Of a DNA stretch of 64,000 nt, positions 33,377 through 50,637 are shown in pieces; positions within the stretch are counted from its first letter, which is position 1; every line of letters begins with the position of its first letter. The notes under the pieces were generated by a model, which was not told the origin of the DNA, did not search any database, and saw only the letters and a list, made by a program, of their open reading frames with translations. This DNA is from Stappia stellulata. GTDB taxonomy: Bacteria > Pseudomonadota > Alphaproteobacteria > Rhizobiales > Stappiaceae. The position numbers and the translations under genes are program-made. The stretch covers positions 248,001 to 312,000 of the forward strand of contig NZ_JAIVMF010000002.1 of NCBI RefSeq assembly GCF_020176715.1. The letters run 5' to 3'.

Positions 33377-36300
33377 ATGACCCGCTTTGCCTCTGTTGCG
33401 TCGGTTTGCCTTCCCCGCGATCGCCTGTCGTTCCGCCCCCTGGCGTTGCCGCTCGCGGTGGCGCTGCTTTCGGCGACGGCGCTGACGCCGGCGCAGGCCG
33501 CTTGTACCTTCAGCGGAACGACGGAGACCTGCAGCGGCCAGATGTACGGCGCCATCGTTCATACCGAGAATACGGTTCACACTTTGTCGCTCAAGGGCAT
33601 GGACAACGATCTCGATGCCTTCGACAGCTCCGACGCGTCCAAGCAGGACGGTCCGGCGATTTATCTGCGCGATCCTGGCGGGGAGACGCCCGCCCCCGGT
33701 GACTGGTCCGGATCGAACCGGAACGGCCAGTCGGGTGTCGACGGCGCAAGCGGTGCCGGCATCAGTGCGACTGTCAGTCTGGACGACGGCTTCAAAATCA
33801 CCGGTACGAGCGGTGTCGTCATCGAGACGACGGGCTGGAAGGGCAGCTACGGCCACGAGGCCAAGCACACCGACAAGCACGCGACCGGCGGGCGCGGCGG
33901 CGACGGCGGCGCGGGAGGCACGGTCTCCTTCATCGCGCAGAAGGCGTCCGGCGGCAAGGCGCCGGGCGCGATCGAGGCCGTTGGAACGCAGAACACCTCC
34001 GCGTCGGTTCAGGATGCGGTGCGCGGCATTCAACTCCTGACCACCGGCGGGGCCGGCGGCAATGGCGGTTGGGCGGAATCCAAGGGCGGGCTGAAGGATG
34101 CGGACGGCGGCATCGGCGGCACGGGCGGCAACGGCGGCTCCGCGACGCTCAGCCTCAAGGACGGTCACTACCTGAACTACAATGCCGACGGCACGGCGCT
34201 CGGCGGGATCGGCATCCATGTGTCGTCGCAGGGCGGCGATGGCGGCGGCGCCGGCTACGGCGAGGTCGATGGCTGGGACGCCGACGATGCCTATGGCGGC
34301 AACGGCGGCACGGGCGGCAACGGCGGCACGGTGAACGTCTCAGCGGCCTCGGCTTTGAGCACCATCATCACGTCCGGTCCCGTCGGAATATATCTCACCA
34401 GCATCGGCGGCGGCGGCGGCGATGGCGGCGACGGCAAGGGCGGCCACGACTACGCCGGTGACGGTGGCGATGCCGGCAACGGCGGCGATGTCACCGCCGA
34501 CCTGAAGGTCGATGTGACGACAACCGGAGGGTCGTCGGGGCCGGGAATCTATCTCAAGAGCGCCGGCGGTCAGGCCGGCGACAGCGGCGGCGATCACGGC
34601 GGCATCAAGAACCATTCCGGCAATCCGGGCGAGCCGGGGGAGGCCGGGACTGTCTCGCTGACGCTCACCGGATCGACGGTGAAGACCGACAATGAGGGCG
34701 CGGACGGTATCCTGCTCCAGAGCATCGGCGGCATGGGCGGCGACGGCGGCGATGTATCGGGCGTCTTTTCCTACGGCAGCAAGGGTGGCAGCGGTGGCGC
34801 CGGCGGAAAGGTCTCCGCCAACATCTCGACGTCGACGGTCTCCACGACGGGCGACCATGCGAGCGCGTTGCATGCCCAGTCGATTGGCGGCGGCGGCGGC
34901 AAGGCGGGCAAGACGTCCGGCCTGTCGGCGCTTGCGGCCGAGGCCGGTGCCGGTGGTGTCGGCGGAACCGTGAACGTGAGCCTTGCCGGCAGCAGCTTCT
35001 CGACCGAGGGCATCAACGCGGCCGCCATCAAGATCCAGTCGATCGGCGGCGGCGGTGGCAGCTCCGGTGCGGCCGACGGCTTTTATGCCGTCGGCGGCGA
35101 GGGCGGGCTCGGTGGCGCGGCCGGGGCCGTGTCCCTGACGGTCGATGGAGCAACGGTTTCCACGAAGGGGCACGCCTCCGTCGGCATTCTCATGCAAAGC
35201 ATCGGCGCGGGTGGCGGTGACGCCTATTCGCCGAGCGGGGCCTTTGCATTCGGCCAGGACGGCGGCGGCGGCGGCAACGGCAGCACGGTCACCTTCACCA
35301 GCAAGAACAAGGGTGTGTCGGTCACGACCGAGGGAGATCATGCGGACGGCGTCGTGCTTCAGTCCGTCGGCGGCGGCGGCGGCAAGGGCGCCAGTTCCTT
35401 CGAGGCGATCGCGCTGCTTACGCCGCTGACGGGTACCAGCGGCGGCGGTGGCGGATCGGCCGGCGACGTGACCTTCACGGGGTCGGACAAGGACGTCATC
35501 AAGACGTCCGGCGAACATTCGCGCGGCTTCGTGGCACAGTCGATCGGCGGCGGCGGCGGTGTCGGCGGCAATACGGTCGAAATCAACATCGGCCTCATGT
35601 TTAATCCGAACACCGGCCAACAGGCCTCCGATATCGCTCATCACGGCGGAACGGTCTCCGGTACGATCGGTGGCACGATCGAAACGGACGGACGCAATTC
35701 CGCCGGTGCGTTCATCCAGTCGGTGGGCGGCGGCGGCGGTGCGGCCGGCAACAGCGTCCAGGCCGGCGTCGCGATCGAGTTCAATCACGACATGGGCGCG
35801 GACGGACAGAAAGGCGGTGATGGCGGCACGGTCGATTTCACCAGCAATGCCGCGATTATAACCCATGAAATGGATTCCGATGGCATCTTCGCCCAGTCGG
35901 TCGGCGGCGGCGGCGGCCATTCCAGCAATGTGTTCGACAGCAACGTCGGCGGACTGAACCTCAGCCAGTATATCGGAAATCAGGGCGCCAAGGGCGGTGC
36001 GGGCGGCGATGGCGGCAAGGTGACGGTCGTCTCCAACGGCACCATCACGACCGGCGGTCACATGTCGCTCGGTATCCTCGCGCAGTCCGTCGGTGGCGGC
36101 GGCGGCAAGGCCGGATCGACGATCAATGCCGATGTGGGGCTTTCGGCCGGGGCCGTGACGCTTGGCCAGTCGGGCGGCGACGGTGGCGTCAGCGGCGACG
36201 TGAGCGTTACCAGCAAGGCGAGGATCTGGACCAAGGGCGCATCCGCGACCGGCATTCTGGCGCAAAGCGTTGCCGGCGGCGGCGGCGTGGCCAACACCAC

Positions 36301-39300
36301 GGTCAACGGCGATCTCGGCATCAGCATGAACTACACGCACGGCGGCAACGGCGGTGAGGGCGGCGATGCCGGCAACGTCACCGTCGAGAACGATGCCGAG
36401 GTGCAGACCGACGGCGACGGATCGGTCGCGATCTTCGCGCAGTCGATGGGCGGCGGCGGCGGCAACGGCGCGGTGACCGCGACGGGTGCGATCAGCATCG
36501 TCGACGTGAACATCGGGGTCGGCGGCAATGGCGGCGCCGGCGGCACCGGCGGCACGGTCAACGTCAGCAACACCGGCAAGCTGACGACCAAGGGCAACTA
36601 TTCCTCCGCGGTATTGGCACAGTCGGTTGGCGGCTCCGGCGGCAACGCCGGCATGCTGGGCATGGGGTCGGCCACGGCCGGCGAGATCTCCGGGTCGGTC
36701 AATGTCGGCGTCGGCGGCGACGGCGGCGACGGCGGCATCGCGGACGCGGTCAAGATCGACAACTCCGCGACAATCGAAACCTCCGGCTACAACGCCTTTG
36801 GCCTTGCCGCCCAGTCGGTTGGCGGCGATGGCGGCATGGGCGGCGCGGTCTATGCCGGCACGTATAACGCGTCGATGGATGGTGGCGCGACGGTTGCCGT
36901 CACGGTCGGCGGCAGCGGCGGCGGGGGCAGCAAGGGCAACGTCGTGACCATCGTGAACAACGGCGATATCACGACCAAAGGCCACTATGCCGATGCCATT
37001 TTCGCCCAGTCGATTGGCGGCAACGGCGGCGCGGGCGGCGCAAGCTATGCCGGAACACTCGACATCAGCACCGGCAATCAGTTTGAGTCCAATGTTCAGG
37101 TCGGCGGCAACGGCGGGTCGGGGGCCATCGGCTCCGATGTGAAGGTCACCAACAGCAAGACGTTGACGACAACCGGGGGCAACGCGCACGGCATCTTCGC
37201 CCAATCGGTCGGTGGCGACGGTGGCGACGGCGGGTCGGGGATCGCCTTCCTCGGCAATTTCGAACGCGAAACCGATAAATACATGAAGATCACCGCCAAC
37301 GCTCAGGTCGGCGGTGGAGGCGGTTCGGGCAACCATGCCGGAAGCGTCACGATCGACAACAGCGGCGATATCTCCACCGCGCAGGATACGTCCTATGGTG
37401 TCTATGCCCAGTCGGTCGGCGGTGGCGGCGGCGACGGCGGCAATGCCGGCGCCTATTCCATCGGTTACACGTTTGCGCCGAAGAACGACGAAGGCGAGGG
37501 CGCGGAAGGCAAGGGCGTCAGCCTGTCCTTCACCATGGGCGGTAGCGGCGGCGGTGGCGGTCATGGCGACGCCGTCAAGGTAAGTAATGACGCCAAGTCG
37601 ACGATCTCGACGACCGGCAAGGCCTCCTATGCGATTTTCGCGCAGTCGGTCGGCGGGTCGGGCGGCACCGGCGGCAATGGCGAGCCGGGACTGGAGGGCT
37701 GGCTTGCCGATGTCTACGACGTCTACGAGAAGCTCAACACCGCCAAGGAGATCTACGAGCAGTTCAAGGAGTTCCCGGAAAGCCTCTATGAAAGCCTTTC
37801 GGTCGATGTCGGCGGCGGCGCAGGCGAGGCCAGCGACGGCGGCGACGTCACGGTGATGAATGACGGCGATCTTACCACGACCGGAGATTCCGCGACCGCG
37901 ATCTACGCCCAGTCCGTCGGCGGTGGCGGCGGGACCGGTGGAGACGGTTCGCAAGGGCTGATAACGTCGCTGTCGGTTGCCGGCAGCTCTGGCGGCGGCG
38001 GCCACGGCGGCACGGTCAATGTCACGCACAACGGCACGATTTCGACGAATGGCGACGGTGCCATCGGCATTCTGGCCCAGTCGCAGGGCGGCGGCGGCGG
38101 TGCCGCCGGCGATATCGAGACCACCATCGTCCATGAGATCGACAATCTCTGGGAAACGCTCGGGGCCCAGATCTTCAGCGTTGCCGATGGCGGCGAGGGC
38201 GGCGATGGCGGTGACGTCACGGTCACGCTCGGGTCCGATGGCGCCATTGTTACATACGGCGCAAACGCCCACGGCATCTTCGCCTATTCGATCGGTGGCG
38301 GCGGCGGCGCCGAGGGCGAACTGAAGGCCGGCGACGGAACCGGGTCCATCGGCAGCGAGGGGCGCGACGGTCTCGGCGGTCTGGTTACGGTCGACGTGAA
38401 CTATCTGGTCGATGTCGGTGGCGAGGGCGCGGTGGGCGTCTACGCCCAAAGCGTGTCGGGCGGCGGCGAAAGCTACTCCAAGGGCGTCGATATCTCGGTC
38501 GATGGCACGGTGCGTGCCGAAGGCGCGAAGGGTCGTGCGATCCTCGCGCAGGTCTCCAGCTTCTATGAGCATGACGTGGAGGGGAAGAACAAAACCGAGG
38601 GCGTGGTCAGAATCTCGATCAAAGAGGGCGGTCTGGTCGAAACCACGTCGGCGGATGCTTATGAAACGATTGCCGTTATGGGTGGTCGGTCCGTGTCGAA
38701 TTCCGAAGGTGATCTCATCGTCACCAACCAGATCACCAACAGCGGAACGTTGCGCAGTGCGGATCTCGATTCGGTCGTGGTGCGCAACGACAGGGAAGCC
38801 TCGCTCAAAATCGTCAATGACGGCGGGACGTTCACCGGCTCGCTCGACCTGAATGACGCGAACAAGCAGGCCTTCTACAACATCGCGTCCGGCATGACCG
38901 AACTGGGCACAAGCTTCAACATGGGCATCCATGCCGACAGCCTGTTCGAGAATTCGGCCGTGCTGACAGCCGGCAAGTGGGGCACGGTTCATACCTCCAC
39001 GATCACGACGGGCAGATTCACCAGCAGCGATCTCCTGGTCGTCGACGCCGACCAGGATGCAGGCGGCACCGTCACCAACGACCTCATCATTGTCGATGTC
39101 CACGGCAAGGACGACGCCATCGAACTTGGCGGCACGGTCGAAACCCATTGGTCGAAGACGACGACGCTGACTTCCGGTGACACTGGTAGCCTGAAGTTCT
39201 TCACATCGGCGAACGGCGAGGCGATCGACTGGTCGGATGCAAAGGCCACGAGCAACGGCGTCATTGCCTATACGCTAAGCGGCAGTGACGACGAGGTGTT

Positions 39301-40453
39301 TCTGGACTACAGCGTCGACTACCAGGGCGGTGCATCGGGTATGGGGCGCAATGCGTCGAATACGGCGCAATACTTCGAAAACGCGATGAACCAGATCAAG
39401 AACGCCGGAATGACCGATGATACCTCCGGCGGGGTGCGGGAATTCGGGGCGACCCTGCTCAATTCCGGAACGACGGCGGAAACGGAGCAGCATCTCAATT
39501 CGCTGTCGCCGGAAGAAAGCCTGAACGGCGCGATGAAGGCGGTGGCAGCCTCCCAGGCGCTGCACGGGTTGCTGCAAAGCTGTCCGACTCTCGATCCCGA
39601 CATGGGCGATGCGTTTTTCCGCCAGCGTGATTGCGTGTGGGTGCAGGCCATCGGCAATCGTCATCACCAAAGCGCGACCGCGGATACCGAATCCTTCCGC
39701 GAAGTCACGACGGGTGTCGCCGGCGCCTTCCAGAAGGAAGTCTTCGACGACACTTTCGTCGAGGTCGGCGGCCAGATCGAGTTCATCGACGTGTCGGGGC
39801 GCAGCTATTCCCAGTCCGGCAGCCGCTTCAGCGCCGGCATCGCGCTCAAGCGCGAAGTGGGCATGTTCACCTTTTCCACGACCGTGGGCGGTGGCGTCTA
39901 CGATCTCGACCAGACCCGGCGCTATGTCTCCGGCGGAACGGCCCACAGCGCCTCGGCTGACGTCAAGGGCCGCTTCCTGACGGCGGAGGGGCGTGTGTCG
40001 GCGGTGTTTGAGCGTCATGGGTTCTATGCCAAGCCGGCGATGGCTCTTTCCATTACGCGCTTCTGGCAGGATGCGTTCCGGGAAACGGGTTCGGGTCCGC
40101 TGAACTGGAATGTTCGCGGCGTCTCGAAGACCTCGGTCGCGGCTGCGCCCATTCTCGAGGTCGGGCATGCCTTCGATCTGCAGGAGCGGCCGACCGTCGT
40201 CTTCCTGCGCGGCGGGATCACCGCTCAGCTCACCGATCCGAGCGTATCGACCACGGCGGTGCTCGCCGGGGCGGATGCCTCCTTCGGGTCGCTGTCGAGC
40301 ATGACGAGTTCCGACCGGGTGCGGGCCGATTTCGCCGCCGGTTTCGACATGGACATCAGCGAGCGCTTCTCGGTCTCGTTGCTCGGGCAGGCCGGCTTCA
40401 GCGAAAACACCACCGACATCGGCGGTTATGCGCGCATGAAGCTGCGCTTCTAG
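33377..40453 (+). CDS. giant glycine-rich repeat autotransporter (type Va)
   Basis: 2,358 residues. A signal peptide (about 1-41, ending TPAQA) precedes the passenger. The passenger is built from about 25 repeats, each roughly 45-75 residues, that close with a motif like GIFAQSVGGGGGxGG and are joined by beta-helix-type segments (VTVxNxGxITTxG). A C-terminal autotransporter barrel spans about residues 2080-2358 (CVWVQAIGNRH through YARMKLRF, ending in the terminal Phe expected for BAM insertion). The passenger is likely a long beta-helix with protruding glycine-rich turns, exposed on or released from the cell surface. ATG 33377 is preferred over the adjacent TTG 33374. No protease motif was seen; adhesin or biofilm matrix function is inferred. 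Confidence 0.9.
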   Translation: MTRFASVASVCLPRDRLSFRPLALPLAVALLSATALTPAQAACTFSGTTETCSGQMYGAIVHTENTVHTLSLKGMDNDLDAFDSSDASKQDGPAIYLRDPGGETPAPGDWSGSNRNGQSGVDGASGAGISATVSLDDGFKITGTSGVVIETTGWKGSYGHEAKHTDKHATGGRGGDGGAGGTVSFIAQKASGGKAPGAIEAVGTQNTSASVQDAVRGIQLLTTGGAGGNGGWAESKGGLKDADGGIGGTGGNGGSATLSLKDGHYLNYNADGTALGGIGIHVSSQGGDGGGAGYGEVDGWDADDAYGGNGGTGGNGGTVNVSAASALSTIITSGPVGIYLTSIGGGGGDGGDGKGGHDYAGDGGDAGNGGDVTADLKVDVTTTGGSSGPGIYLKSAGGQAGDSGGDHGGIKNHSGNPGEPGEAGTVSLTLTGSTVKTDNEGADGILLQSIGGMGGDGGDVSGVFSYGSKGGSGGAGGKVSANISTSTVSTTGDHASALHAQSIGGGGGKAGKTSGLSALAAEAGAGGVGGTVNVSLAGSSFSTEGINAAAIKIQSIGGGGGSSGAADGFYAVGGEGGLGGAAGAVSLTVDGATVSTKGHASVGILMQSIGAGGGDAYSPSGAFAFGQDGGGGGNGSTVTFTSKNKGVSVTTEGDHADGVVLQSVGGGGGKGASSFEAIALLTPLTGTSGGGGGSAGDVTFTGSDKDVIKTSGEHSRGFVAQSIGGGGGVGGNTVEINIGLMFNPNTGQQASDIAHHGGTVSGTIGGTIETDGRNSAGAFIQSVGGGGGAAGNSVQAGVAIEFNHDMGADGQKGGDGGTVDFTSNAAIITHEMDSDGIFAQSVGGGGGHSSNVFDSNVGGLNLSQYIGNQGAKGGAGGDGGKVTVVSNGTITTGGHMSLGILAQSVGGGGGKAGSTINADVGLSAGAVTLGQSGGDGGVSGDVSVTSKARIWTKGASATGILAQSVAGGGGVANTTVNGDLGISMNYTHGGNGGEGGDAGNVTVENDAEVQTDGDGSVAIFAQSMGGGGGNGAVTATGAISIVDVNIGVGGNGGAGGTGGTVNVSNTGKLTTKGNYSSAVLAQSVGGSGGNAGMLGMGSATAGEISGSVNVGVGGDGGDGGIADAVKIDNSATIETSGYNAFGLAAQSVGGDGGMGGAVYAGTYNASMDGGATVAVTVGGSGGGGSKGNVVTIVNNGDITTKGHYADAIFAQSIGGNGGAGGASYAGTLDISTGNQFESNVQVGGNGGSGAIGSDVKVTNSKTLTTTGGNAHGIFAQSVGGDGGDGGSGIAFLGNFERETDKYMKITANAQVGGGGGSGNHAGSVTIDNSGDISTAQDTSYGVYAQSVGGGGGDGGNAGAYSIGYTFAPKNDEGEGAEGKGVSLSFTMGGSGGGGGHGDAVKVSNDAKSTISTTGKASYAIFAQSVGGSGGTGGNGEPGLEGWLADVYDVYEKLNTAKEIYEQFKEFPESLYESLSVDVGGGAGEASDGGDVTVMNDGDLTTTGDSATAIYAQSVGGGGGTGGDGSQGLITSLSVAGSSGGGGHGGTVNVTHNGTISTNGDGAIGILAQSQGGGGGAAGDIETTIVHEIDNLWETLGAQIFSVADGGEGGDGGDVTVTLGSDGAIVTYGANAHGIFAYSIGGGGGAEGELKAGDGTGSIGSEGRDGLGGLVTVDVNYLVDVGGEGAVGVYAQSVSGGGESYSKGVDISVDGTVRAEGAKGRAILAQVSSFYEHDVEGKNKTEGVVRISIKEGGLVETTSADAYETIAVMGGRSVSNSEGDLIVTNQITNSGTLRSADLDSVVVRNDREASLKIVNDGGTFTGSLDLNDANKQAFYNIASGMTELGTSFNMGIHADSLFENSAVLTAGKWGTVHTSTITTGRFTSSDLLVVDADQDAGGTVTNDLIIVDVHGKDDAIELGGTVETHWSKTTTLTSGDTGSLKFFTSANGEAIDWSDAKATSNGVIAYTLSGSDDEVFLDYSVDYQGGASGMGRNASNTAQYFENAMNQIKNAGMTDDTSGGVREFGATLLNSGTTAETEQHLNSLSPEESLNGAMKAVAASQALHGLLQSCPTLDPDMGDAFFRQRDCVWVQAIGNRHHQSATADTESFREVTTGVAGAFQKEVFDDTFVEVGGQIEFIDVSGRSYSQSGSRFSAGIALKREVGMFTFSTTVGGGVYDLDQTRRYVSGGTAHSASADVKGRFLTAEGRVSAVFERHGFYAKPAMALSITRFWQDAFRETGSGPLNWNVRGVSKTSVAAAPILEVGHAFDLQERPTVVFLRGGITAQLTDPSVSTTAVLAGADASFGSLSSMTSSDRVRADFAAGFDMDISERFSVSLLGQAGFSENTTDIGGYARMKLRF
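34360..38490 (+). repeat. repeat array in autotransporter passenger
   Basis: About 23 clear and two early degenerate copies of a unit whose conserved core reads [IV]-[FLY]-A-Q-S-[VI]-G-G-G-G-G. At DNA level each core holds runs of GGC triplets, so slippage would add or remove whole glycines without a frameshift. Two units carry helix-like insertions, near 37695-37795 (YEKLNTAKEIYEQFKEF) and 38115-38175. Confidence 0.85.
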
Positions 40454-41251: not shown

Positions 41252-41575
41252 TCAGTTCTTCGCGGCTTCCACGAGCTGGACCGAGACGGCGTTCAGCGCG
41301 GCGAGCTTCGCCTCGCCGGTTCCGTCCGCATAGGCCGCGTCGAGGGTCGCGACCATGCCGCGGAAATTGTCGAGCAGCGCATCGGCGGCATCGATCGGCA
41401 GCGGCTGGTCGTCATAGGCTTCCACCACGCCCTGGGCGGCGAACATGATCAGGGTCAGGGCGGCGGCATTGTCCGGCTCGCTGGAGATCCGCGCCCGCGC
41501 GGCCTTTGCGCAGGAGTTGTAGGCGCGCACCCCGTGACCACCATCGACAACGATCTCGACGAGACTTTCAAACAT
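41252..41575 (-). CDS. small helical protein of unknown function, linked to pyrE
   Basis: Not recognised. There are 107 residues, mostly Ala-rich amphipathic helices, with no signal peptide or membrane segment. ATG 41575 has GGAG six bases upstream; a longer frame to 41728 overlaps pyrE and is rejected. It lies 14 bases after the pyrE stop, so it is in the same transcript. Features visible are an acidic average charge and a single cysteine near residue 22 (YNSCAKAARARI). No catalytic motif is evident. Confidence 0.65.
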   Translation of the reverse strand: MFESLVEIVVDGGHGVRAYNSCAKAARARISSEPDNAAALTLIMFAAQGVVEAYDDQPLPIDAADALLDNFRGMVATLDAAYADGTGEAKLAALNAVSVQLVEAAKN

Positions 41576-41589
41576 TTCCAACTCCGATC

Positions 41590-42288
41590 CTATTGACTGG
41601 ACAGTTCGGCAATGCCGCCGTGGTTGGCCGACCACTCCAGCGGATTGTGCAGGAAGTTCTCGACTTCCCTGAGAACCTCGGGCGACAGGTGCTTCTGCTT
41701 CTTGCAGACGTCGAGAATGTCCCACCACGTCGCGAGATAGTGCAGGCGCATGCCGGCGGCCTCTAGCCGTTCCGGCGTGCCCGGGAAGACGTCGTAGTAG
41801 AACACCGAGAACGTGTCGGTCGCCTTCGAGCCGGCCTTGGCGATCGCCTCGGCGAACTTGACCTTGCTGCCGCCGTCGGTGATCAGGTCCTCGACCAGGA
41901 GGACGCGCGAGCCTTCCTTGAGATAGCCTTCGATCTGGGCGTCGCGGCCGAAGCCCTTGGGCTTCTTGCGCACATATTGCATCGGCAGGCCGAGGCGCTC
42001 CGACAGCCAGGCGGCGAAGGGAATTCCGGCCGTTTCCCCGCCGGCGACGGAATCGAACTGTTCAAAGCCCGCGTCCCGCAGGATCGTGCCGGCCGCGAAA
42101 TCCATCACGGCGGAACGGATCCGCGGGAAGGAAATCAGCTTGCGGCAATCGATGTAGACCGGGCTCGCAAGGCCCGAGGTAAAGGTGAACGGCTGGTCTG
42201 CCCGGAAATGGACGGCTTCGATTTCGAGCAGCATTTTGGCGACCAACTCGGAAACGAGGGCCTTGTCGGGGAAGGTGTTGGGGAACAT
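41590..42288 (-). CDS. pyrE: orotate phosphoribosyltransferase
   Basis: Converts orotate and PRPP to orotidine monophosphate in UMP synthesis. There are 232 residues. The PRPP-binding motif [14 protein letters not shown] is intact. [14 protein letters not shown] and [17 protein letters not shown] (the catalytic-lysine loop) match the family. It is 61 bases downstream of pyrC on the same strand. In this setting it would also salvage orotate imported by the upstream TRAP system. Confidence 0.95.
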
Positions 42289-42349
42289 GGGCTGGGTCCT
42301 GTGCTGCGAGCGGATTCTACGCTAGGTGCTTTACTGAATCTGGACCGGT

Positions 42350-43390
42350 CTAGCTACCCACATTCCAGTGGATCGGGATCATCGGATCGAACACCGTCAC
42401 CTCGTCCTGCCCGACCGCGACCTTCCTGGGAAAGACGACCGGTTCGTCCTGGCGGGTGAGGGTGAGTGTGGCTTCGTTCGCGGGCAGGCCATAGAAGGCA
42501 GGCCCGTTGAGCGAGGCGAAGGCCTCCAGCTTGTCCAGCGCGTTTTCCTGTTCGAAAACCTCCGCCAGACAGGCCATCGTGTTGATGGACGTGAAGATGC
42601 CGGCGCAGCCGCAGGCCGTTTCCTTCAGCGGATCGATATGCGGTGCGGAATCGGTGCCGAGGAAGAACCGCGCGTCACCCGAGGTCGCGGCGGCGCGCAG
42701 CGCCAGCCGGTGCTTTTCGCGCTTGGCGACCGGCAGGCAATAGTAATGCGGCCTGATGCCGCCGGCGAGGATCGCGTTGCGGTTGATCATCAGGTGATGC
42801 GTGGTGATCGTCGCGCCGACGTTCTTGTCCTGCGCCTTGACGTAGTCGACGCCGTTTTCCGTCGTCACATGCTCCAGCACCACGCGCAGTCCCGGCAACC
42901 GCTCGCGCAAGGGGGCGAGAACCGTTTCCAGGAACACCGCTTCGCGGTCGAAGATGTCGATGGCCGGGTCCGTCACTTCGCCGTGGACGCAGAGCGGCAG
43001 GCCGATCTCGGCCATCTTCTCCAGAACGGAATGGACCTTGGCGAGATCGCGCACGCCGCTTTGGGAATTGGTGGTGGCGCCGGCGGGATAGAGCTTCACC
43101 GCGGTAATCAGCCCGTCACGAAAGCCCGCTTCCACATCCGCCGGATCGGTCGTTTCCGTCAGATAGAGCGTCATCAGCGGGGTGAAGTCGTCGCCCTTGG
43201 GCAGCGCCTTGAGAATGCGGTCGCGGTAGGCGGCTGCCTGGGCCGTGGTGACGACCGGCGGCACCAGGTTGGGCATGATGATGGCACGGGCGAAGTTGCG
43301 GGAGGTGTGGGGGAGGACACCTTCCAGGACGTCGCCGTCGCGCAGGTGCAGGTGCCAGTCGTCCGGCCGGCGAATCGTGAGTGTGGTCAT
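42350..43390 (-). CDS. pyrC: dihydroorotase
   Basis: Zinc enzyme that interconverts N-carbamoyl-L-aspartate and dihydroorotate; 346 residues, the E. coli-like class. The metal motif [11 protein letters not shown] is intact. [11 protein letters not shown] and FLGTDSAPH carry further ligands, with the active-site Asp in the last. The ATG overlaps the upstream hydrolase stop (ATGA), unlike a stand-alone housekeeping pyrC. The reaction is reversible, so it can serve synthesis or orotate breakdown. Confidence 0.95.
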
Positions 43391-44673
43391 GCTTGCTCCT
43401 CGAGATAGGCGGAGAAGATATCGCATGCCCGCAGGAAGTCCGAAACGTCCATGGCTTCATCCGGATTGTGCGAGCCGTTTCGGTTGCGCACGAACACCAT
43501 TCCGGCCGGAACGCCTGCGGCGGAAAAGACCGCCGCGTCGTGGCCGCCGCCGCTCGGCATGATGAAGGGCTCCAGCCCGGCGCGCGCCATGGCCTCGCGC
43601 AGACCGTCGACCACCTGGGGGTCGCAGACCGCCGGGGCGGAATACATGCCCTCGTCGAGCTCGAAGCGGACCTTGCGGTCCTTCTCGATCTGCTTCATTT
43701 CGGTCGCGACGAGGCTGCGCATCTCGTCCAGCGTTTCCGCGCTCTGGCTGCGGATGTCGAGGCTGAAAGTGAGCCGGTCGGGAATGCGCGACAGCGCGTT
43801 GGTTTCCCGGTCGGTGGAGACCATGCCGCTGGTGAGCACCAGGTCGGCGCCCTTGTTCAGGATCGTCGTCCAGCTTTCATCCAGCCGCACCATCAGGTCG
43901 GCGAAGGCAAGCACCGGATCGCGGCGATAGGCTTTCGGCACGGCGCCGGAGTGCCCGGCTTCGCCGATGCAGTTGATCGCGCGATGGCGGAAGTTGCCGC
44001 GAATGCCCGAGACCACGGCGGCCGGCAGGTTCTTGCCGATCAGCAGCGGGCCCTGCTCGATATGGAGTTCCAGATAGGCCTCGATCCGGCTGCAGTCGAC
44101 CAGCGGTTCGCCCTTGGCGATCCGCTCGGTCGGCAGGCCGACGTCGGCCATGTGCTCGGCGAGCGTGCGGCCGTCGCCCTTGTGGCGGGCGTTCGCCTCG
44201 GTCTCCGTCAGCTGGCCGGTCAGCACCTTGGAGCCGATGTAGCAGGGGCCGAACCAGGCGCTTTCCTCGCCGCGCATGGCGAGCACATGGACGGGACGGC
44301 GGAAGGAGGTGCCGGCGCGGCGCGCGCGCACCAGGCACATCAGCCCGGCGATCACGCCGGCAAGACCGTCGTAGTTGCCGCCGAAAGGCACGCTGTCGAC
44401 ATGCGAGCCGATGACGATGAAGCGCTCCGCGTCGCGGTCCTGCGGCAGGCAGAAATTGGCGTTGCAGCCGTCGTCGTACCACACGTCGAGCCCTTCGGCG
44501 CGGGCGAAGTCCTCCAGATAGGCAAGCGTCTTGGTCTCGACATCGGAAAACGCCGGTCGGCTGACCCCCTCGACGTCCGGGGTCATCTCGGCGATCTCGT
44601 CGAACAGCCGCTCGGCGAGCGCGTGGTCGGCTTCCCGCGAGGCGGCTTTCGGGGGTGTCTTTGCAAGGGTCAT
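43387..44673 (-). CDS. M20 N-carbamoyl-amino-acid hydrolase (candidate ureidosuccinase)
   Basis: Zn-dependent amidohydrolase of the carbamoylase / allantoate amidohydrolase group; 428 residues. Candidate metal ligands are all present: His91 (GSHVDS), Asp102 (NYDGLAGV), Glu136/137 (RGEESAWFG), His204 (ELHIEQGP) and His402 (GSHNPDEAM). It sits exactly between the dihydroorotate dehydrogenase and dihydroorotase genes, overlapping both by four bases. That position argues for N-carbamoyl-L-aspartate as substrate, giving aspartate, CO2 and ammonia. Family members also act on allantoate, beta-ureidopropionate and other carbamoyl amino acids, and specificity cannot be read directly. Confidence 0.85.
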
Positions 44674-45614
44674 TGGGCCACCGCGATGGCTGAGGTCCGG
44701 ATGTCCTGCTCGCCGTCGACGACCGAGCCGATCAGCTCGGACACCGAGGCGATGCCCTGTGCGGCAAGCCAGGCTTCCAGATCGTGAAGGATGGTGAGCA
44801 TGGCGGTCGGATGGATGAAGGTCGCCGTGCCGACCTGCACGGCCGTGGCGCCGGCGATCAGATATTCGATCACGTCCTCGGCGGTGGAAATGCCGCCGCA
44901 GCCGATCACCGGAATATTGGCCGCGCGGGCGCACTGATAGGCCATGCGCAGGGCGATCGGCTTCAGCGCCGGTCCCGACAGGCCGCCCATCAGGTTGCCG
45001 AGCCGGGGCTGGCGCGTGTGGATGTCGATGGCCATCGACAGGATGGTGTTGGAGACGACGAGCGCATCCGCGCCGCCTTCCTCGGCCGCCCGTGCGACGT
45101 CGGGGACCTCGCCGGTGTTCGGCGTGAGCTTCGCCCAGAGCGGCAGGGGGCTTGCGGCGCGCAGGCGCTGCATGATCTCGAAGGTTGAGGACGGGCGGAT
45201 GGCGAAGGCCTTGCCGTCTTCCTCGATGTTCGGGCAGGAGATATTGACCTCGATGGCGTCGACGCCGGCGACGCTGACCTCCGCGCACAGGGCCGCGAAC
45301 TCATCGGCCGTGTTGCCGGAGATGCTCACCACCAGCGGGGTCTCGTAGCGCTGGAAGAAGGGCACGACCTTCTCGAGAAAGGCGCCGACGCCCTTGCTCG
45401 GAATGCCGATGGAATTGAGCATCGAGCCGTTCACCTCGCAAACCCGCGGGGTCGGATTGCCGTCCCGCCAGTCCCGCGTGATCGTCTTGGTGACATGGGC
45501 GCCAAGCCGTTCGAGGTCGAAGACCTCGGCCAGTTCCTCCGAGAAGGTCCCGGAGGCCGGCATGATCGGGTTCTTGAGCTTCAACCCGGCGATATCGACT
45601 GAAAGATCTACCAT
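44670..45614 (-). CDS. pyrD: dihydroorotate dehydrogenase, class 1B catalytic subunit
   Basis: FMN enzyme interconverting dihydroorotate and orotate; class 1B works with NAD through a PyrK partner. There are 314 residues. The class 1 active-site cysteine lies in VNISCPNIEEDGKAF. Substrate and FMN motifs include ASGTFSEELAEVF, CEVNGSMLNSIGIPSKG, LWAKLTPNTGE and VIGCGGISTAEDV. It lacks the N-terminal membrane helix of class 2 enzymes, which are usual in aerobic proteobacteria. The start overlaps the pyrK end by seven bases and the stop overlaps the hydrolase start. Confidence 0.92.
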   Translation of the reverse strand: MVDLSVDIAGLKLKNPIMPASGTFSEELAEVFDLERLGAHVTKTITRDWRDGNPTPRVCEVNGSMLNSIGIPSKGVGAFLEKVVPFFQRYETPLVVSISGNTADEFAALCAEVSVAGVDAIEVNISCPNIEEDGKAFAIRPSSTFEIMQRLRAASPLPLWAKLTPNTGEVPDVARAAEEGGADALVVSNTILSMAIDIHTRQPRLGNLMGGLSGPALKPIALRMAYQCARAANIPVIGCGGISTAEDVIEYLIAGATAVQVGTATFIHPTAMLTILHDLEAWLAAQGIASVSELIGSVVDGEQDIRTSAIAVAQ

Positions 45615-46456
45615 GCGATGGCCTCTGCCATATCGAAGACGGGGCCTTCCCGGCAGACCCTCAGATTGACGACCTTGCCGTCCCGGTTGAACTTGCGCAC
45701 GCAGCACTGGCACATGCCGATGCCGCAGGCCATCTGCTGTTCCAGCGCCACCTGGCCGGGAATGCCGTGAGCCTCGCCGAGCTTTTGCAGCAGGCGCAGG
45801 ATGCGGTTCGACCCGCAGGTGTAGAAGGCATCCGCGCGGCCCTCGGCGATCAGGCCTTCCAGCACCTTTTCAAGGTTGTCCGGCGCCGAGGTTCCCTCCG
45901 CATCGGTCAGCGCGACGACCGTCGCGCCGAGGCCTTCGAACAGGTCGATGGACATCAGGTAGTCGGGATGGCGCGCGCTGCAGACCGCCGTCAGGCGGCG
46001 GCCGAGACGTTTCGCCTCCAGCGCCAGCGGGGCGAGTGTTGCGAGCCCGACACCGCGGGCGACGAGAACCAGATCCGTCCAGTCATCCTCGATGGTGAAG
46101 GGCGTTCCCAGCGGTCCGAAGACGGTGAGACTGTCGTTCTCCCCAAGCGTTGCCATAGCGCGGGTGCCCGCGCCGCCGACCTTGTAGAGGAAATGCAGCT
46201 CGTTCTTTTCGGGATAGAAGCCGTAGATGCTCATCGGCCGGCGCAGATAGGGGGTCTCGCCGCCGGCCTGCGGGCACAGGATGTTGAAGAACTGGCCCGC
46301 CTGGCACTGCTCCAGAACGTGGGCGGGCGCGTCCAGCACCATCATGCGGTATTCGCCGTTGACCGCGGTGTTGCTCTTGACCCGAAGGTCGAGGTCGAAC
46401 GCGGTAGGCGCGACCCGACCGGCGGTTGCATTGGGTGTTTGCAGCATAGCACTCAT
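45608..46456 (-). CDS. pyrK: PyrK-type electron transfer subunit of dihydroorotate dehydrogenase
   Basis: FAD and [2Fe-2S] ferredoxin-reductase-like subunit that passes electrons between NAD(H) and PyrD 1B. There are 282 residues. FAD-binding RRPMSIYGF occurs near residue 80. The C-terminal cluster cysteines are Cys244, Cys249, Cys252 and Cys268 (MACGIGMCQCCV, then RVCREGPVF), the spacing of PyrK. The ATG at 46456 overlaps the dctM stop. Having this subunit means the pair is NAD-linked and can run as an orotate reductase. Confidence 0.9.
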   Translation of the reverse strand: MSAMLQTPNATAGRVAPTAFDLDLRVKSNTAVNGEYRMMVLDAPAHVLEQCQAGQFFNILCPQAGGETPYLRRPMSIYGFYPEKNELHFLYKVGGAGTRAMATLGENDSLTVFGPLGTPFTIEDDWTDLVLVARGVGLATLAPLALEAKRLGRRLTAVCSARHPDYLMSIDLFEGLGATVVALTDAEGTSAPDNLEKVLEGLIAEGRADAFYTCGSNRILRLLQKLGEAHGIPGQVALEQQMACGIGMCQCCVRKFNRDGKVVNLRVCREGPVFDMAEAIAW

Positions 46457-47739
46457 CCGAACACGAGCCGGGGCAGGAACGTGGAGATGTCCGGCACATA
46501 GGTGATGATCGCGAGAACGATTAGATTGGCGATGATGAAGGGCCACAGTCCCGAGATGATGGTCATCACCGGTTTCGACAGGGTCGAGGAGGCGACGAAG
46601 ATATCGAGCCCGAAGGGCGGCGTGATCATGCCGATGGAGATGTTCAGCGTGACGACCATGCCGAAGTGGACCGGGTCGATGCCGAGCGCCATGGCCACCG
46701 GAAAGAGCGGCGGCACCAGGATCAGCAGCGCCGAGTTCGGATCGATGAACATGCCGGCGATCAGGAAGCAGACGTTGACGATCAGCAGGAACATCACCGG
46801 CCCGGCGTGGATCGCCTCCAGGAAGTTGGTGATCGCGGTCGGCACCTGCGCCAGGGTGATGAAATAGGACAGGAGGCTGCCCATCGCGAGCAGGATGAAG
46901 ATGATCGCGGTCGAGATCGCGGCGCGTTCGGTCACGTCGAACAGCTTGCGCCAGGTCAGCTCGCGAAAGACCAGTCCCTCGACGAGGATGGCATAGATGA
47001 CGCTGACGGCGGCCGCTTCCGTGGGTGTGAAATAGCCGCTGTAGATGCCGCCGAGGATGATGAACGGCATGCCGAGCGCCCAGCCCGACTGGCGGATCGC
47101 GACGAGCCGCTCGCGCCAGCTTGTGCGCGGCGCGCGTTCGACGCCGCTGCGGCGGGCCTCGATTGCCGCCATTACGGCGAAGGCCAGACCGAGCACCAGA
47201 CCGACCGCGAGGCCGCCGACAAACAGCTTGGCGACCGAGGTGCCGGTCATCCAGCCGTAGATGATGAAGGTGATGGAGGGCGGAATGAGCAGGGCCGTTT
47301 CCGCGCTGGAGACGATGAGGCCGAGCGAGAAGCGGTCGCTGAAGCCGGCCTTGCGCAATTCCGGATAGACCATGCGCGCCATGGCGGCGACGGTCGCCGG
47401 CGCGGAGCCGGAGACGGAGCCGAAGGCCATGGACCCGCCGATGGTGGTGTAGCCCATGCCGCCGCGCAGGTGGCCGATCATCGTCTTGACGAGGCCGGTC
47501 AACCGGCTGGCGATCTGGCCCGCACCCATCAGTTCCGCGGCGAGGATGAAGAAGGGGATCGCCAGGAGCGTGGTGTGGTTGATGCCGCCGAGAATCTTCT
47601 GCGCGAGAACCGGGTCGGGGAGGTTTCCGTAGAAGAATTCCTTGATCATGAGCGCGGGAACGCCCAGCACGAGGAACATCTCGAAGCCGAGAACGAGCAG
47701 CAGGACGGCTGCGAGAACGACGAGTGCGATCAGGATCAT
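46453..47739 (-). CDS. dctM: TRAP transporter large permease (DctM)
   Basis: Ion-coupled membrane component of a tripartite ATP-independent transporter; 428 residues with about 11-12 hydrophobic segments. Family motifs include PFFILAAELMGAGQIASRL, GSVSGSAPATVAAMARMVYPE, and LIPPSITFIIYGWMTG. A ribosome binding site (GGAGG) lies before ATG 47739. The start overlaps the dctQ stop and the end overlaps pyrK, which joins transport and metabolism in one message. Confidence 0.95.
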   Translation of the reverse strand: MILIALVVLAAVLLLVLGFEMFLVLGVPALMIKEFFYGNLPDPVLAQKILGGINHTTLLAIPFFILAAELMGAGQIASRLTGLVKTMIGHLRGGMGYTTIGGSMAFGSVSGSAPATVAAMARMVYPELRKAGFSDRFSLGLIVSSAETALLIPPSITFIIYGWMTGTSVAKLFVGGLAVGLVLGLAFAVMAAIEARRSGVERAPRTSWRERLVAIRQSGWALGMPFIILGGIYSGYFTPTEAAAVSVIYAILVEGLVFRELTWRKLFDVTERAAISTAIIFILLAMGSLLSYFITLAQVPTAITNFLEAIHAGPVMFLLIVNVCFLIAGMFIDPNSALLILVPPLFPVAMALGIDPVHFGMVVTLNISIGMITPPFGLDIFVASSTLSKPVMTIISGLWPFIIANLIVLAIITYVPDISTFLPRLVFG

Positions 47740-48269
47740 AGGTCCTCCGACGCCTGTCCGGCGAAACGATCGATGCGACCGAAGAAGCTGAGGGCGTAAC
47801 GCAACGCCATCAAAGCGAAACCGGTGGTCGGTGCGAGATAGATCCAGAAGACGGGGACGTTCAGCGTCGGGCTTTTTTGGCCCATGCCGTAAACGAAGGC
47901 GGTCATCTGGTAGCTGAGGTAGACGAGATAGACGCAGAAGACGAAGCCGACCGCGTCGATGACCTTGCGCAGCGGCAGCCCGCTCGCCCGCGCGATGCGG
48001 TCGCGCCAGGTGTGCACGCCGGCGTGGCGGCCCTTTTCCAGCGCGAGGCCGACCGAGAAGAAGACGAGGAACAGGCTCATCAGCCGGACCGCCTCTTCCA
48101 CCCAGGCGAAGTCCGACGCGAAGGTGCCCCCGACCTGACGCGCAAGCACGTTGGAGAAGTAGAGGACAACCATCGACAGAAAGATGGAGACAGCGGCGAT
48201 ACGCTCGGCTGTTCTTATGGCGGTCAGTATTTTCAAGGGACTGTCCTTAGCACGGGGGGACCGGTCCAT
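47736..48269 (-). CDS. dctQ: TRAP transporter small permease (DctQ)
   Basis: Four-helix accessory membrane subunit of the TRAP transporter, 177 residues from MDRSPRAKDS. Hydrophobic segments occur near VSIFLSMVVLYFSNVL, LMSLFLVFFSVGLAL, VIDAVGFVFCVYLVYLSY and IYLAPTTGFALMALRYAL. The E-[EA]-x-x-R membrane-edge motif (VEEAVRL) is typical. A GTG at 48314 would add 15 residues; neither start has a clear ribosome binding site. It overlaps dctM by four bases. Confidence 0.88.
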   Translation of the reverse strand: MDRSPRAKDSPLKILTAIRTAERIAAVSIFLSMVVLYFSNVLARQVGGTFASDFAWVEEAVRLMSLFLVFFSVGLALEKGRHAGVHTWRDRIARASGLPLRKVIDAVGFVFCVYLVYLSYQMTAFVYGMGQKSPTLNVPVFWIYLAPTTGFALMALRYALSFFGRIDRFAGQASEDL

Positions 48270-48450
48270 GACCGAGGGTGAAACGGTTCGAGGCGGAGCG
48301 CTTTTCGTCAACACGCCAATGAGCCGGAAACGGGGGCCATTTTCGCGTCATTCGCAACGTGCGGGAAGCGCACTCCCGTCAAAGCCGGAGCCAATGGGCA
48401 GGGCGGTGCGGGCGTCGTCTGCGCGCGCGTCCCGACGCTGCGGGCCCCGA

Positions 48451-48476
48451 TGCCGGACCCTTTTGAGGGTCCGGCA
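48451..48476 (-). terminator. dctP/dctQ intercistronic stem-loop
   Basis: Ten perfect base pairs (48451-48460 with 48467-48476) and a six-base loop, 40 bases after the dctP stop. A hairpin here would keep the binding-protein message more abundant than the permease message, by partial termination or 3'-end protection. Confidence 0.6.
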
Positions 48477-48515
48477 GGAGAGAGACCGATGCCGACACGC
48501 GGAACCGGCCGGAAA

Positions 48516-49541
48516 TTACTTGGCCGTGGTGGCCTCGTATTCCTTTTCGTAGATGGCGATCAGGGCTTCGCCTTCCTCGCCGGCGCGGTTCAGATAGGCG
48601 GCGCGTGCGGGCGGGTACATCACATCGCGGAAGGCCGCCTTTTCCTCATCGCTCATCACGCGGATCTCGATGTCGGACTTCTTGATCTCCTCAAGCGCGG
48701 CGTCGACGGCCGCGGACTTGTGCGCGATCAGCTCCGGGATGACTTCCTGGAACGCGGCGACGATCGTGTCCTTGTGCTCCTGCGGCAGGCTCGACCACCA
48801 GGCCGGGTTGAACAGGATCACGTCTTCCATGGCACCGTGGTTGGAAACCACGAGATGCTTCTGTACTTCGTGGAACTTCATGCGCTGGATGGTGTCGAGC
48901 GGGTTTTCCTCGCCGTCGACGACGCCGGTCTGAAGTGCGGTGTAGAGCTCGCCGAAGGGTAGGGCGATGGCCGATGCGCCGAGCGAGTTGAACTGCTCGA
49001 TCAGGATGTTGGAATCCATCACGCGGAACTTCTGGCCGGCGAAGTCGTCGAGGCTGGCGAGCGGCTTGGAGGAGGTGAAGTTCTTGCGTCCGTTCGGCCA
49101 CAGGCCGATGCAGGTCACGCCGCGCTCGTCGAAAGACTTGCAGAGCGCGTCGCCGAAGGCACCGCCGCGGATTTCCTGGGAGACCTGTTCGTCGTTCGGC
49201 AGCAGGAAGGGAATGTCGAGAATGGACACCGCCGGGTTGAAGCCGCCGAGGAAGGCGGCCGGGGCGACCGTGCCCTCAAGCGAGCCGAGCTGGACGCCTT
49301 CGGTCATCTCGCGCTGCGAGCCGAGCTGGCCCTGCGGGAAAATCTGGAACTCGACGGCGCCGCCGGTGCGCTCCGCCACGAGTTCGGCCACCTTCTCGAG
49401 GTGGACGTGGCGCGACTGCTGCGCGGACTCCAGATGTCCGATCTTCGCGGTGAACTCTGCGGCATAGGCGCCGGAGACACCGGATATGGTGGCGGCGACA
49501 AGCAGGCAGGAAGCCGATAGATTACGAATGCGCGTGTTCAT
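48516..49541 (-). CDS. dctP: TRAP transporter substrate-binding protein (DctP)
   Basis: Periplasmic high-affinity binding protein, 341 residues with a signal peptide ending GAYAAEF. DctP-family features are FQIFPQGQLGSQREMTEGVQ, GLWPNGRKNFTSSKPLASL, FRVMDSNILIEQF, and GVVDGEENPLDTI. The substrate-binding arginine is likely in FRVMD. GAGAGGG lies five bases upstream of ATG 49541. The linked pyrD-pyrK-hydrolase-pyrC genes suggest orotate, dihydroorotate or N-carbamoyl-aspartate as ligand; sequence alone cannot decide. Confidence 0.93.
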   Translation of the reverse strand: MNTRIRNLSASCLLVAATISGVSGAYAAEFTAKIGHLESAQQSRHVHLEKVAELVAERTGGAVEFQIFPQGQLGSQREMTEGVQLGSLEGTVAPAAFLGGFNPAVSILDIPFLLPNDEQVSQEIRGGAFGDALCKSFDERGVTCIGLWPNGRKNFTSSKPLASLDDFAGQKFRVMDSNILIEQFNSLGASAIALPFGELYTALQTGVVDGEENPLDTIQRMKFHEVQKHLVVSNHGAMEDVILFNPAWWSSLPQEHKDTIVAAFQEVIPELIAHKSAAVDAALEEIKKSDIEIRVMSDEEKAAFRDVMYPPARAAYLNRAGEEGEALIAIYEKEYEATTAK

Positions 49542-49616
49542 TGTGACCCTCTCTGGAATTTTTACATCCGGGAAGGGAAGAGCGTAGGAGCGGACATTTT
49601 TCCTGTCAACGACAAA

Positions 49617-49630
49617 TCTCAAAATTGAGA
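49617..49630. promoter_or_regulatory. operator-like inverted repeat between dctP and regulator
   Basis: TCTCAA-AA-TTGAGA, a perfect six-base dyad with a two-base spacer, in the AT-rich intergenic region between divergent genes (75 bases from dctP, 110 from the regulator). It is the best candidate site for the adjacent HTH protein. Confidence 0.5.
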
Positions 49631-49740
49631 CACTAGCTCTTTAAGTCTAATAATTGGTACGATGCTTTCCGTTCGGGCGCCGGTCGCGTTGACAAGCCCG
49701 TGCGGTGAAGCCAAGACAAATTTTAGTGGAAGGATCGGGC

Positions 49741-50637
49741 GTGCCGGACGAGGAAACCATCAGCTTCTCCGATATTGGCGCGAGATTGAGAGCCTATCGT
49801 CTGGGCAAGGGCCTGTCGCCGGAAACGCTTGCCGAAAAGCTCGGGATGTCCCGCGCCGCCCTGTACCGGGCGGAAAAGGGCGAGATTCGCAAGATCGAGG
49901 CGCTGACCAGCATCGCCGCCGAACTCGGCGTCTCGCTCGCGAGCCTGATGGGGGTCGGCGTCGAATATGTCTCCAGTGCGGTCGCCTTCTTCGAGCGCAT
50001 GCGCCAGCTGGAGCAGAACTGCGAACAGATCATCGGTCTGTTTAGTCCGGTCTCCTACCTTCTGACCTCCGACGCCTATGACGACATGCTGCGCGAGGTG
50101 TTGCTGGAATCGATCCCGGAAAGCGCGATGAGCGCGCCGGCGGCCGCCGATCTGGTGGCCTCCCTGCTGGAGATCCTGCGGGCCCGCAAGACGGCCTTTC
50201 ACCAGCGCCGGCCGCTGATCGTCAGCCTGATCGCCTCTGCGGATCTGGAGCGTTTTCTGCTGCACGGGTTGATCGGGCGCCACGACCTGCCGGCCGATGT
50301 GGTCCGTGCCCGGCGCGTTCAGGCCCGTCGCGAAGCGGAATCGATCCTGGAGATGCTGCGGGAGGAACCGATCGGCATTCAGATCGGCATCGTGCGCGAA
50401 CCGGTGCCGGCGACGAGCTTCCAGATCTTCCGCCAGAACGGACGCTCGCTGGTGGCGATCAGTCCGTTCCGGCTCGGCGAGCAACCGAATATCCGGCTTG
50501 GCGTCGCCCTGATCACCGCCGCGCCGGAAGCCATGGCCTTGCACGAGGAGATCGCCAAGGGGCTTTGGCAGGATGCGCTGAAGGGCAAGGACGCGGCGGA
50601 ATATCTGGAAGCGATGATCGACAAATACGCGGTGTGA
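49741..50637 (+). CDS. XRE-family transcriptional regulator, divergent from TRAP/pyr operon
   Basis: 298 residues. The N-terminal Cro/XRE helix-turn-helix (about 10-65) reads IGARLRAYRLGKGLSPETLAEKLG then SRAALYRAEKGE. The remaining 230 residues form an unassigned, mostly helical sensor region ending in an alpha/beta segment (IGIQIGIVREPVPATSFQIF). GTG 49741 is chosen because GGAAGGA lies about seven bases upstream; a GTG at 49705 would add 12 residues. Its divergent placement and the dyad between the genes suggest it controls the TRAP/pyr operon in response to a substrate. Confidence 0.8.
   Translation: MPDEETISFSDIGARLRAYRLGKGLSPETLAEKLGMSRAALYRAEKGEIRKIEALTSIAAELGVSLASLMGVGVEYVSSAVAFFERMRQLEQNCEQIIGLFSPVSYLLTSDAYDDMLREVLLESIPESAMSAPAAADLVASLLEILRARKTAFHQRRPLIVSLIASADLERFLLHGLIGRHDLPADVVRARRVQARREAESILEMLREEPIGIQIGIVREPVPATSFQIFRQNGRSLVAISPFRLGEQPNIRLGVALITAAPEAMALHEEIAKGLWQDALKGKDAAEYLEAMIDKYAV

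Follow-up and report, generated by a model that had tools for sequence, protein, structure and literature searches.

A candidate operon for the import and reductive breakdown of orotate in Stappia stellulata

A stretch of 64,000 nucleotides from Stappia stellulata (contig NZ_JAIVMF010000002.1, positions 248,001 to 312,000; hereafter the window) carries genes for a tripartite ATP-independent periplasmic (TRAP) transporter beside genes of the pyr series, and the question raised by this locus is whether it serves to make pyrimidines or to consume orotate. The first-pass annotation had proposed that the locus imports and catabolises orotate, which from the sequence appears to be by far the best reading, as the closest solved relative of the transporter's binding protein binds orotate, a class 2 dihydroorotate dehydrogenase (PyrD) is encoded separately, and an M20 amidohydrolase accompanies PyrK-PyrD in 79 of 80 related loci. 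We consider it very probable that these genes form an orotate-utilisation operon under one regulator, combining import, reductive breakdown to aspartate and ammonia, and a branch through PyrE. The gene content, its conservation, the separate class 2 PyrD and the single palindrome ahead of the operon were observed directly.

The genes dctP, dctQ, dctM, pyrK, class 1B pyrD, the M20 amidohydrolase gene and pyrC lie in the same direction on the minus strand with the coordinates given in the first pass, and the overlaps of 4-7 bases described from dctQ to pyrC are present (dctQ/dctM 4, dctM/pyrK 4, pyrK/pyrD 7, pyrD/hydrolase 4, hydrolase/pyrC 4). The three enzymes had been said to stand in pathway order, which is not so, the actual order being pyrK, pyrD, hydrolase, pyrC. 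The unit had also been drawn from 42350 to 49541; the genes inside these limits are correct and the limits themselves are not, since pyrE, a gene for a protein of 107 amino acids and a divergent regulator extend it. On the minus strand, it spans 49541 down to 41252, from dctP through the 107-residue protein gene, with gaps of 61 bases between pyrC and pyrE and 14 bases between pyrE and the last gene.

We infer all substrates of the proposed pathway, and the direction of PyrK-PyrD. DctPQM would import orotate, PyrK-PyrD would run towards reduction and convert orotate to L-dihydroorotate with reduced nicotinamide adenine dinucleotide or its phosphate (NAD(P)H), PyrC would open the ring to yield N-carbamoyl-L-aspartate, and the M20 amidohydrolase would release L-aspartate, CO2 and ammonia. 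Part of the orotate would be diverted by PyrE to orotidine monophosphate and uridine monophosphate (UMP), and the regulator, acting at the palindrome TCTCA-N4-TGAGA between its own gene and dctP, would open the operon when orotate or an orotate product is present. Import and breakdown were already part of the earlier proposal, which omitted pyrE and with it the possibility that the locus also feeds orotate into UMP. With NADH as donor, the reduction of orotate runs downhill, and a dehydrogenase, a dihydroorotase and a carbamoyl hydrolase are found in one locus, as judged by family assignment.

The gene set proved to be conserved in other genomes. A scan with a PyrK alignment gave 395 stretches encoding a relative, the best 80 of which were kept as loci for all counts; their source genera include Stappia, Nitratireductor, Mesorhizobium, Thalassospira, Celeribacter, Pseudooceanicola and others. 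Within approximately 6.5 kb of pyrK, these loci contain pyrD (80), the hydrolase (79), dctM (77), dctP (76), dctQ (76), the regulator (75), pyrE (62) and pyrC (39). The exact order and directions of the window, from regulator to pyrE, recur in 24 of the 80, and another 14 differ solely by an absent pyrC. Among named genomes other than metagenome bins, the closest relative is that of Stappia stellulata DSM 5886 (L037), with 92-99% identity over the nine proteins compared. Because the constant companion of pyrK-pyrD is the hydrolase, and not pyrC or pyrE, these counts argue for breakdown.

The first-pass annotation had made its reading depend on whether PyrK-PyrD is the sole dihydroorotate dehydrogenase, and a genome search found that it is not, a class 2 PyrD being encoded elsewhere (TIGR01036, 389 bits, cut-off 200). 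The same was true of all 40 cluster-bearing genomes searched (42 of the 80 loci were submitted, and the genomes of 40 were available), so PyrK-PyrD is an extra dehydrogenase, and a role as housekeeping enzyme was ruled out. The window PyrD scores above the cut-off of the 1B equivalog NF005574 and is predicted to be a class 1B enzyme with NAD-linked turnover. It is 42.5% identical to Lactococcus lactis PyrDB (1EP1), and nine residues checked (C135 and eight others), which we take to be the catalytic cysteine or orotate-binding sites as in the L. lactis enzyme, are retained in 86 of 86 sequences, one of the 80 PyrD proteins having been omitted as short (240 residues). In PyrK, the iron-sulfur domain PF10418 passes its own cut-off, and the cysteines are invariant in 10 sequences. 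A PyrK-linked PyrD was indeed unusual, as had been suggested, such a PyrK occurring in 11 of 385 genomes drawn evenly from the class; among the 12 PyrK loci of this draw, the hydrolase accompanies four (G000, G015, G373 and one of two in G104).

Other arrangements of these genes were also seen. Seven loci (L024-L026, L028-L030, L032) represent a second type of pyrK-pyrD locus, in which the M20 hydrolase is missing, with the same regulator in four (L025, L028, L029, L032); the surroundings of L028 include molybdenum hydroxylase, amidase, amidohydrolase, TauD-like and TPR genes. Locus L027 (1-7033) carries regulator, pyrK, pyrD, pyrE, pyrC and a second pyrE consecutively, with no M20 hydrolase.

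Regarding the imported compound, the window DctP is probably an orotate-binding protein, to judge by its closest solved relative. A search of solved chains placed 4NN3 first with 446 bits, the next best reaching 178 bits, and 202 of 324 residues (62.3%) are identical between the two proteins. The accessible part of PMC11668362 describes 4NN3, from Maridesulfovibrio salexigens (see also the TRAP ligand list in PMC5812351), as bound to orotic acid, with a lysine replacing a conserved arginine and an asparagine at a further site. The window DctP, from a host of a different phylum, carries the corresponding lysine and, in the alignment, differs at the asparagine site. The pattern around the lysine could be fitted in 49 of 76 DctP proteins, all with K at this position (the 27 unfitted ones were left unjudged). 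A single-sequence structure model of DctP had a mean predicted local distance difference test score (pLDDT) of 34.8. The structure 4NN3 reportedly originates from a 2015 report of TRAP ligands, which may mention neighbouring genes. A TRAP system with a DctP 74% identical to that of the window was also observed with no pyr genes within its stretch (L177 6878-9813).

The window hydrolase is proposed to be an N-carbamoyl-L-aspartate hydrolase (EC 3.5.1.7) on the basis of its position in the family and its residues. The 84 cluster hydrolases fall on one side of a branch with a Shimodaira-Hasegawa-like approximate likelihood ratio (SH-aLRT) support of 100, against 30 other family members, in a tree for which the tool warned of long branches that meet. 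Two of the 79 cluster hydrolases were omitted as short (248 and 320 residues), and the 30 contrast sequences were the loci of the highest-scoring matches, including the paralog of the same genome (L116), a choice that favours mainstream members. Residues H91, D102, E137, H204 and H402, presumably the metal ligands of the hydantoinase/carbamoylase M20 family, are common to the 84 cluster and 30 other hydrolases. In addition, R225 and N227 are present in 84 of 84 cluster hydrolases, N227 being absent from four non-cluster enzymes compared, and R296 is present in 83 (the remaining one has K), together with loss of the usual asparagine at 295. As this asparagine helps to hold the substrate carboxylate in known carbamoylases, R296 could be the residue that anchors the second carboxylate in N-carbamoyl-aspartate. 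Residues R134 and W140 were rejected as marks of carbamoyl-aspartate specificity, being common to two sister enzymes encoded beside 5-oxoprolinase genes (L173 4962-6218 and L174 4971-6212). Both sisters also have a lysine at 296, and one has R225; taken together, these residues suggest that the sisters may take an acidic substrate too.

PyrC and PyrE, the last two enzymes encoded in the operon, bear on pyrimidine synthesis as well. A second pyrC, considered in the first pass, was not found in the genome, where the window pyrC is the sole match to TIGR00856. A PRK09059-type protein adjoining pyrB (L005 1495-2808, 702 bits) reads PGLVDMDVTVGEPG at the position where active dihydroorotases have HxH, and is probably inactive; the remaining cyclic amidohydrolases of the genome are dihydropyrimidinases, or allantoinase-like proteins below cut-off. 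This leaves the window PyrC as the sole dihydroorotase recognised as intact, which rules it out as a dedicated second copy. The window pyrE is likewise the only copy, the second match in the genome search having just 38 bits. As the only recognised intact copies, PyrC and PyrE must also serve pyrimidine synthesis. A locus for reductive orotate degradation might be expected to have its own dihydroorotase beyond the biosynthetic one, and this one does not; an extra dihydroorotase is not essential, because the reaction is reversible. Among 41 genomes of the neighbourhood, PyrC of the window type was found in 18 and a PRK09060 dihydroorotase above cut-off in 23, with both types only in G428 and neither only in G451, so that one dihydroorotase has replaced the other. 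In the 18 genomes with window-type PyrC, the hydrolase gene lies directly upstream of pyrC in 14 and not in the other four.

Several observations weigh against the breakdown of orotate by this operon. PyrK falls under the curated NCBIfam PyrK cut-offs (114 bits at best, cut-off 270), pyrC is absent from the stretch in 41 of the 80 loci, so that ring opening must often rely on an enzyme encoded elsewhere, and in the class-wide draw no hydrolase was seen in 8 of the 12 PyrK loci, one of which (L026) is interrupted by a contig end. On plasmids, 5 of 17 regions with a relative of the hydrolase have no pyrK-pyrD beside it (L173 and L174, with 5-oxoprolinase genes, L175, L182 and L186). A TRAP system 54-66% identical to that of the window (DctP 54%) adjoins maleate isomerase and isochorismatase-family genes, with no pyr genes (L176 7010-9829), suggesting that relatives of DctP may bind other acids. 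Moreover, the hydrolase would destroy a compound that the same genome needs as an intermediate for making pyrimidines.

The alternative that fares best is that the locus serves salvage and synthesis alone, with orotate imported for UMP via PyrE, PyrK-PyrD acting as a quinone-independent back-up that oxidises dihydroorotate, and the hydrolase serving some unrelated purpose. The frequency of pyrE and pyrC in the 80 loci and their status as the only recognised intact copies in the genome are in its favour; nevertheless it is unlikely, given that the hydrolase is the constant partner of pyrK-pyrD, that a class 2 PyrD was present in every genome searched and that the hydrolase is fused to the cluster's 107-residue protein on two plasmids. 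A shade less probable is that the transporter takes up dihydroorotate, N-carbamoyl-aspartate or a different N-heterocyclic or ureido acid, on which the enzymes would act instead of orotate. The sister hydrolases beside 5-oxoprolinase genes and the DctP relative with maleate isomerase indicate that both families vary in substrate, which such a reading could draw upon, and against it stand the orotic acid in 4NN3 (as reported in the accessible part of PMC11668362), the PyrD residues retained throughout, and the company of pyrE and, on one plasmid, pyrF. A chance neighbourhood of unrelated genes, for which nothing was found in favour, is excluded by the constant order in most of the 80 loci, the recurrence on plasmids and the conserved operator.

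A probable operator ahead of dctP adds to the evidence for an operon under one regulator. Between regulator and dctP lies TCTCAATTTTGAGA, whose pattern TCTCAWWWWTGAGA matches once in the 4.55-Mb genome. In 85 regions ahead of dctP or of the genes that take its place on plasmids, the palindrome TCTCA-N4-TGAGA was perfect in 46 and had one mismatch in 26, two in eight, three in four and four in one; the corresponding means for plain letter shuffles (20 per region) were 0, 0.6, 9.7, 47.9 and 26.7. The operator goes with the regulator: in the 73 dctP loci with a regulator, mismatches numbered none (44), one (25) or two (4), thus at most one in 69 of 73, and the three Pseudovibrio loci without it (L091, L093, L110), among the 76 with dctP, all have at least three. 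It is this palindrome that the regulator is predicted to bind. Modelled with 36 sequences (mean pLDDT 84.7), the regulator shows an XRE head, and its C-terminal part weakly matches PLD-like proteins and TrmBL2 (E 1e-4 to 1e-3). The operator overlaps a promoter-like site pointing in the direction of the regulator. A scan of 41500-50000 gave two promoter-like sites (1.1 expected), both on the plus strand, and none on the strand of pyrC and pyrE, so that no internal promoter for either gene was found in this interval.

Relatives of the cluster recur on plasmids of Alpha-, Beta- and Gammaproteobacteria. At E up to 1e-60, relatives of the hydrolase were present in 90 plasmid records (53 from Klebsiella), and regions from 17 of these were examined. 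The genes pyrD and pyrK, by annotation or tblastn, lie beside the hydrolase in 12 regions (L118-L123, L178, L179, L181, L183, L184, L185), nine of which have a transporter of the major facilitator superfamily (MFS) and one a TRAP transporter (L123), while neither was seen within the stretches examined of L183 and L184. Five MFS proteins compared share 58-78% mutual identity, and that of Klebsiella comes nearest to the aromatic acid/H+ symporters without reaching their cut-off (345 against 419 bits). In the Pseudomonas putida cluster, the dihydroorotase step is filled by a different family in place of PyrC (PRK09236, 701 bits, cut-off 535), and one plasmid cassette is accompanied by pyrF (TIGR02127, 263 bits, cut-off 111). 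That the same slots are filled by different transporters and dihydroorotases speaks for a single pathway. Beside the P. putida cassette, a downstream methyl-accepting chemotaxis protein gene (L120 13494-15164) possibly encodes a chemoreceptor for the cassette substrate.

In Klebsiella, the stretch running from PyrK to the regulator shows at least 99.9% identity across all 53 plasmid records and had no megablast match in 5,426 E. coli genomes. The cassette relative lies beside lacY-lacZ in all three Klebsiella plasmid regions examined, and the source field names milk or mastitis milk in 9 of the 53 records, most others being human or environmental. Klebsiella plasmids bearing lac and fec have been linked to bovine mastitis (PMC12724306), in a text where a word search for orot-, pyrimidine, pyrC and pyrD gave no hits, and orotate is described as a milk component in the accessible parts of PMC12111157 and PMC8614319. 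That the cassette helps Klebsiella in milk is our guess. A 421-residue protein without family is encoded beside the MFS gene (L118 4059-5324), as in the other two Klebsiella regions.

The 107-residue protein of the window had no Pfam or NCBIfam match; 40 members of its family gave few and weak ones (at most 6 of 40 to any one family), and a PDB search gave weak matches only, the best (E 1.8e-5) to a short stretch of CagY. Its profile is present in 72 of the 80 loci; of the eight others, four (L058, L062, L063, L078) end close to the cluster and three (L091, L093, L110) are the Pseudovibrio loci that lack the regulator, leaving L106. On plasmids, the protein is present in the regions of Klebsiella, Variovorax, P. 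putida, Cupriavidus and Nitratireductor, and follows the hydrolase even in L182 and L186, both without pyrKD; the profile search did not find it in L122 or L183. In-frame fusions of the protein with the hydrolase occur on Agrobacterium pAtCFBP7129a (L119) and Neorhizobium galegae pHAMBI540a (L184). In the class-wide draw, the protein was found in 4 of 385 genomes, namely G000, G015 (approximately 6 kb beyond the regulator), G298, where a relative (L191 9883-10293) adjoins a gene resembling dihydropyrimidinase by eye, and G361, with no clear context; G373 and G104 have the hydrolase without it. The protein probably acts on the hydrolase or together with it, and the simplest guess is that it acts around the hydrolysis of ureido compounds.

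The same reaction sequence is known from Clostridium (Zymobacterium) oroticum, which converts orotate to dihydroorotate with an NADH-linked dehydrogenase, then to N-carbamoyl-aspartate, and finally to aspartate, CO2 and ammonia. In contrast, clusters of the Stappia type occur in Proteobacteria with a quinone-linked PyrD for synthesis, and include a TRAP or MFS transporter, a regulator with its operator, PyrE and the 107-residue protein. The reductive uracil pathway (PreT-PreA, dihydropyrimidinase, N-carbamoyl-beta-alanine hydrolase) takes a pyrimidine through the same three types of reaction; in this genome, it is encoded at a separate locus on contig C6, and its hydrolase belongs to another branch of the family. 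Orotate uptake by DctA in E. coli and Salmonella, described in the accessible part of PMC13328217, likewise leads from orotate to UMP via PyrE, but with a transporter of a different family and with no breakdown described in that part of the source. While the chemistry is known from orotate-fermenting clostridia, a gene-level account of the proteobacterial gene set, hydrolase clade, 107-residue family or operator was not found in the open literature searched, where, across 5.39 million papers, ureidosuccinase and five spelling variants of carbamoyl-aspartate hydrolase did not occur.

On balance, we lean slightly towards a wider interpretation, that of a portable proteobacterial cassette for orotate catabolism with a new family of N-carbamoyl-aspartate hydrolase, a new and sometimes fused accessory family and its own regulator and operator, which might be a milk trait on Klebsiella lactose plasmids and whose dihydroorotase would have taken over pyrimidine synthesis in Stappia. 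If orotate is broken down as proposed, the cluster would supply genes, transporters and a regulator for a pathway so far familiar to us from the biochemistry of anaerobes alone, as well as a sequence for EC 3.5.1.7, and orotate would be a nutrient of marine Alphaproteobacteria. It would also be a case in which an enzyme of a breakdown operon, PyrC, stands in for the usual biosynthetic one.

Table 1. Features of the candidate orotate-utilisation locus (positions in the window).
Feature	Position	Strand or location	Evidence and remarks
Regulator, XRE-type helix-turn-helix head and conserved C-terminal domain	49705..50637	+	PF01381 and PF13560 above cut-off; true start perhaps some codons downstream
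Probable operator, TCTCAAAATTGAGA (plus strand)	49617..49630	between regulator and dctP	sole genome match of TCTCAWWWWTGAGA
dctP, TRAP solute-binding protein, probably for orotate	48516..49541	-	TIGR00787, 223 bits, cut-off 175
dctQ, TRAP small permease	47736..48269	-	PF04290, 82 bits, cut-off 28; start uncertain: 48314, 48269 or 48236
dctM, TRAP large permease	46453..47739	-	TIGR00786, 401 bits, cut-off 268
pyrK, divergent electron-transfer subunit for PyrD 1B	45608..46456	-	PF10418, 45 bits, cut-off 24
pyrD, class 1B dihydroorotate dehydrogenase, proposed orotate reducer	44670..45614	-	NF005574, 360 bits, cut-off 269; TIGR01037, 315 bits, cut-off 270
M20 amidohydrolase, proposed N-carbamoyl-L-aspartate hydrolase (EC 3.5.1.7)	43387..44673	-	TIGR01879, 255 bits, cut-off 204
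pyrC, E. coli-type dihydroorotase	42350..43390	-	TIGR00856, 436 bits, cut-off 293
pyrE, orotate phosphoribosyltransferase	41590..42288	-	NF001729, 381 bits, cut-off 245
107-residue protein, unknown family, last cluster gene	41252..41575	-	profile match in 72/80 loci

Beyond the last gene of the cluster, an open frame of 2359 amino acids rich in glycine repeats is located on the plus strand at 33374-40453, and by eye it resembles an autotransporter-type surface protein.

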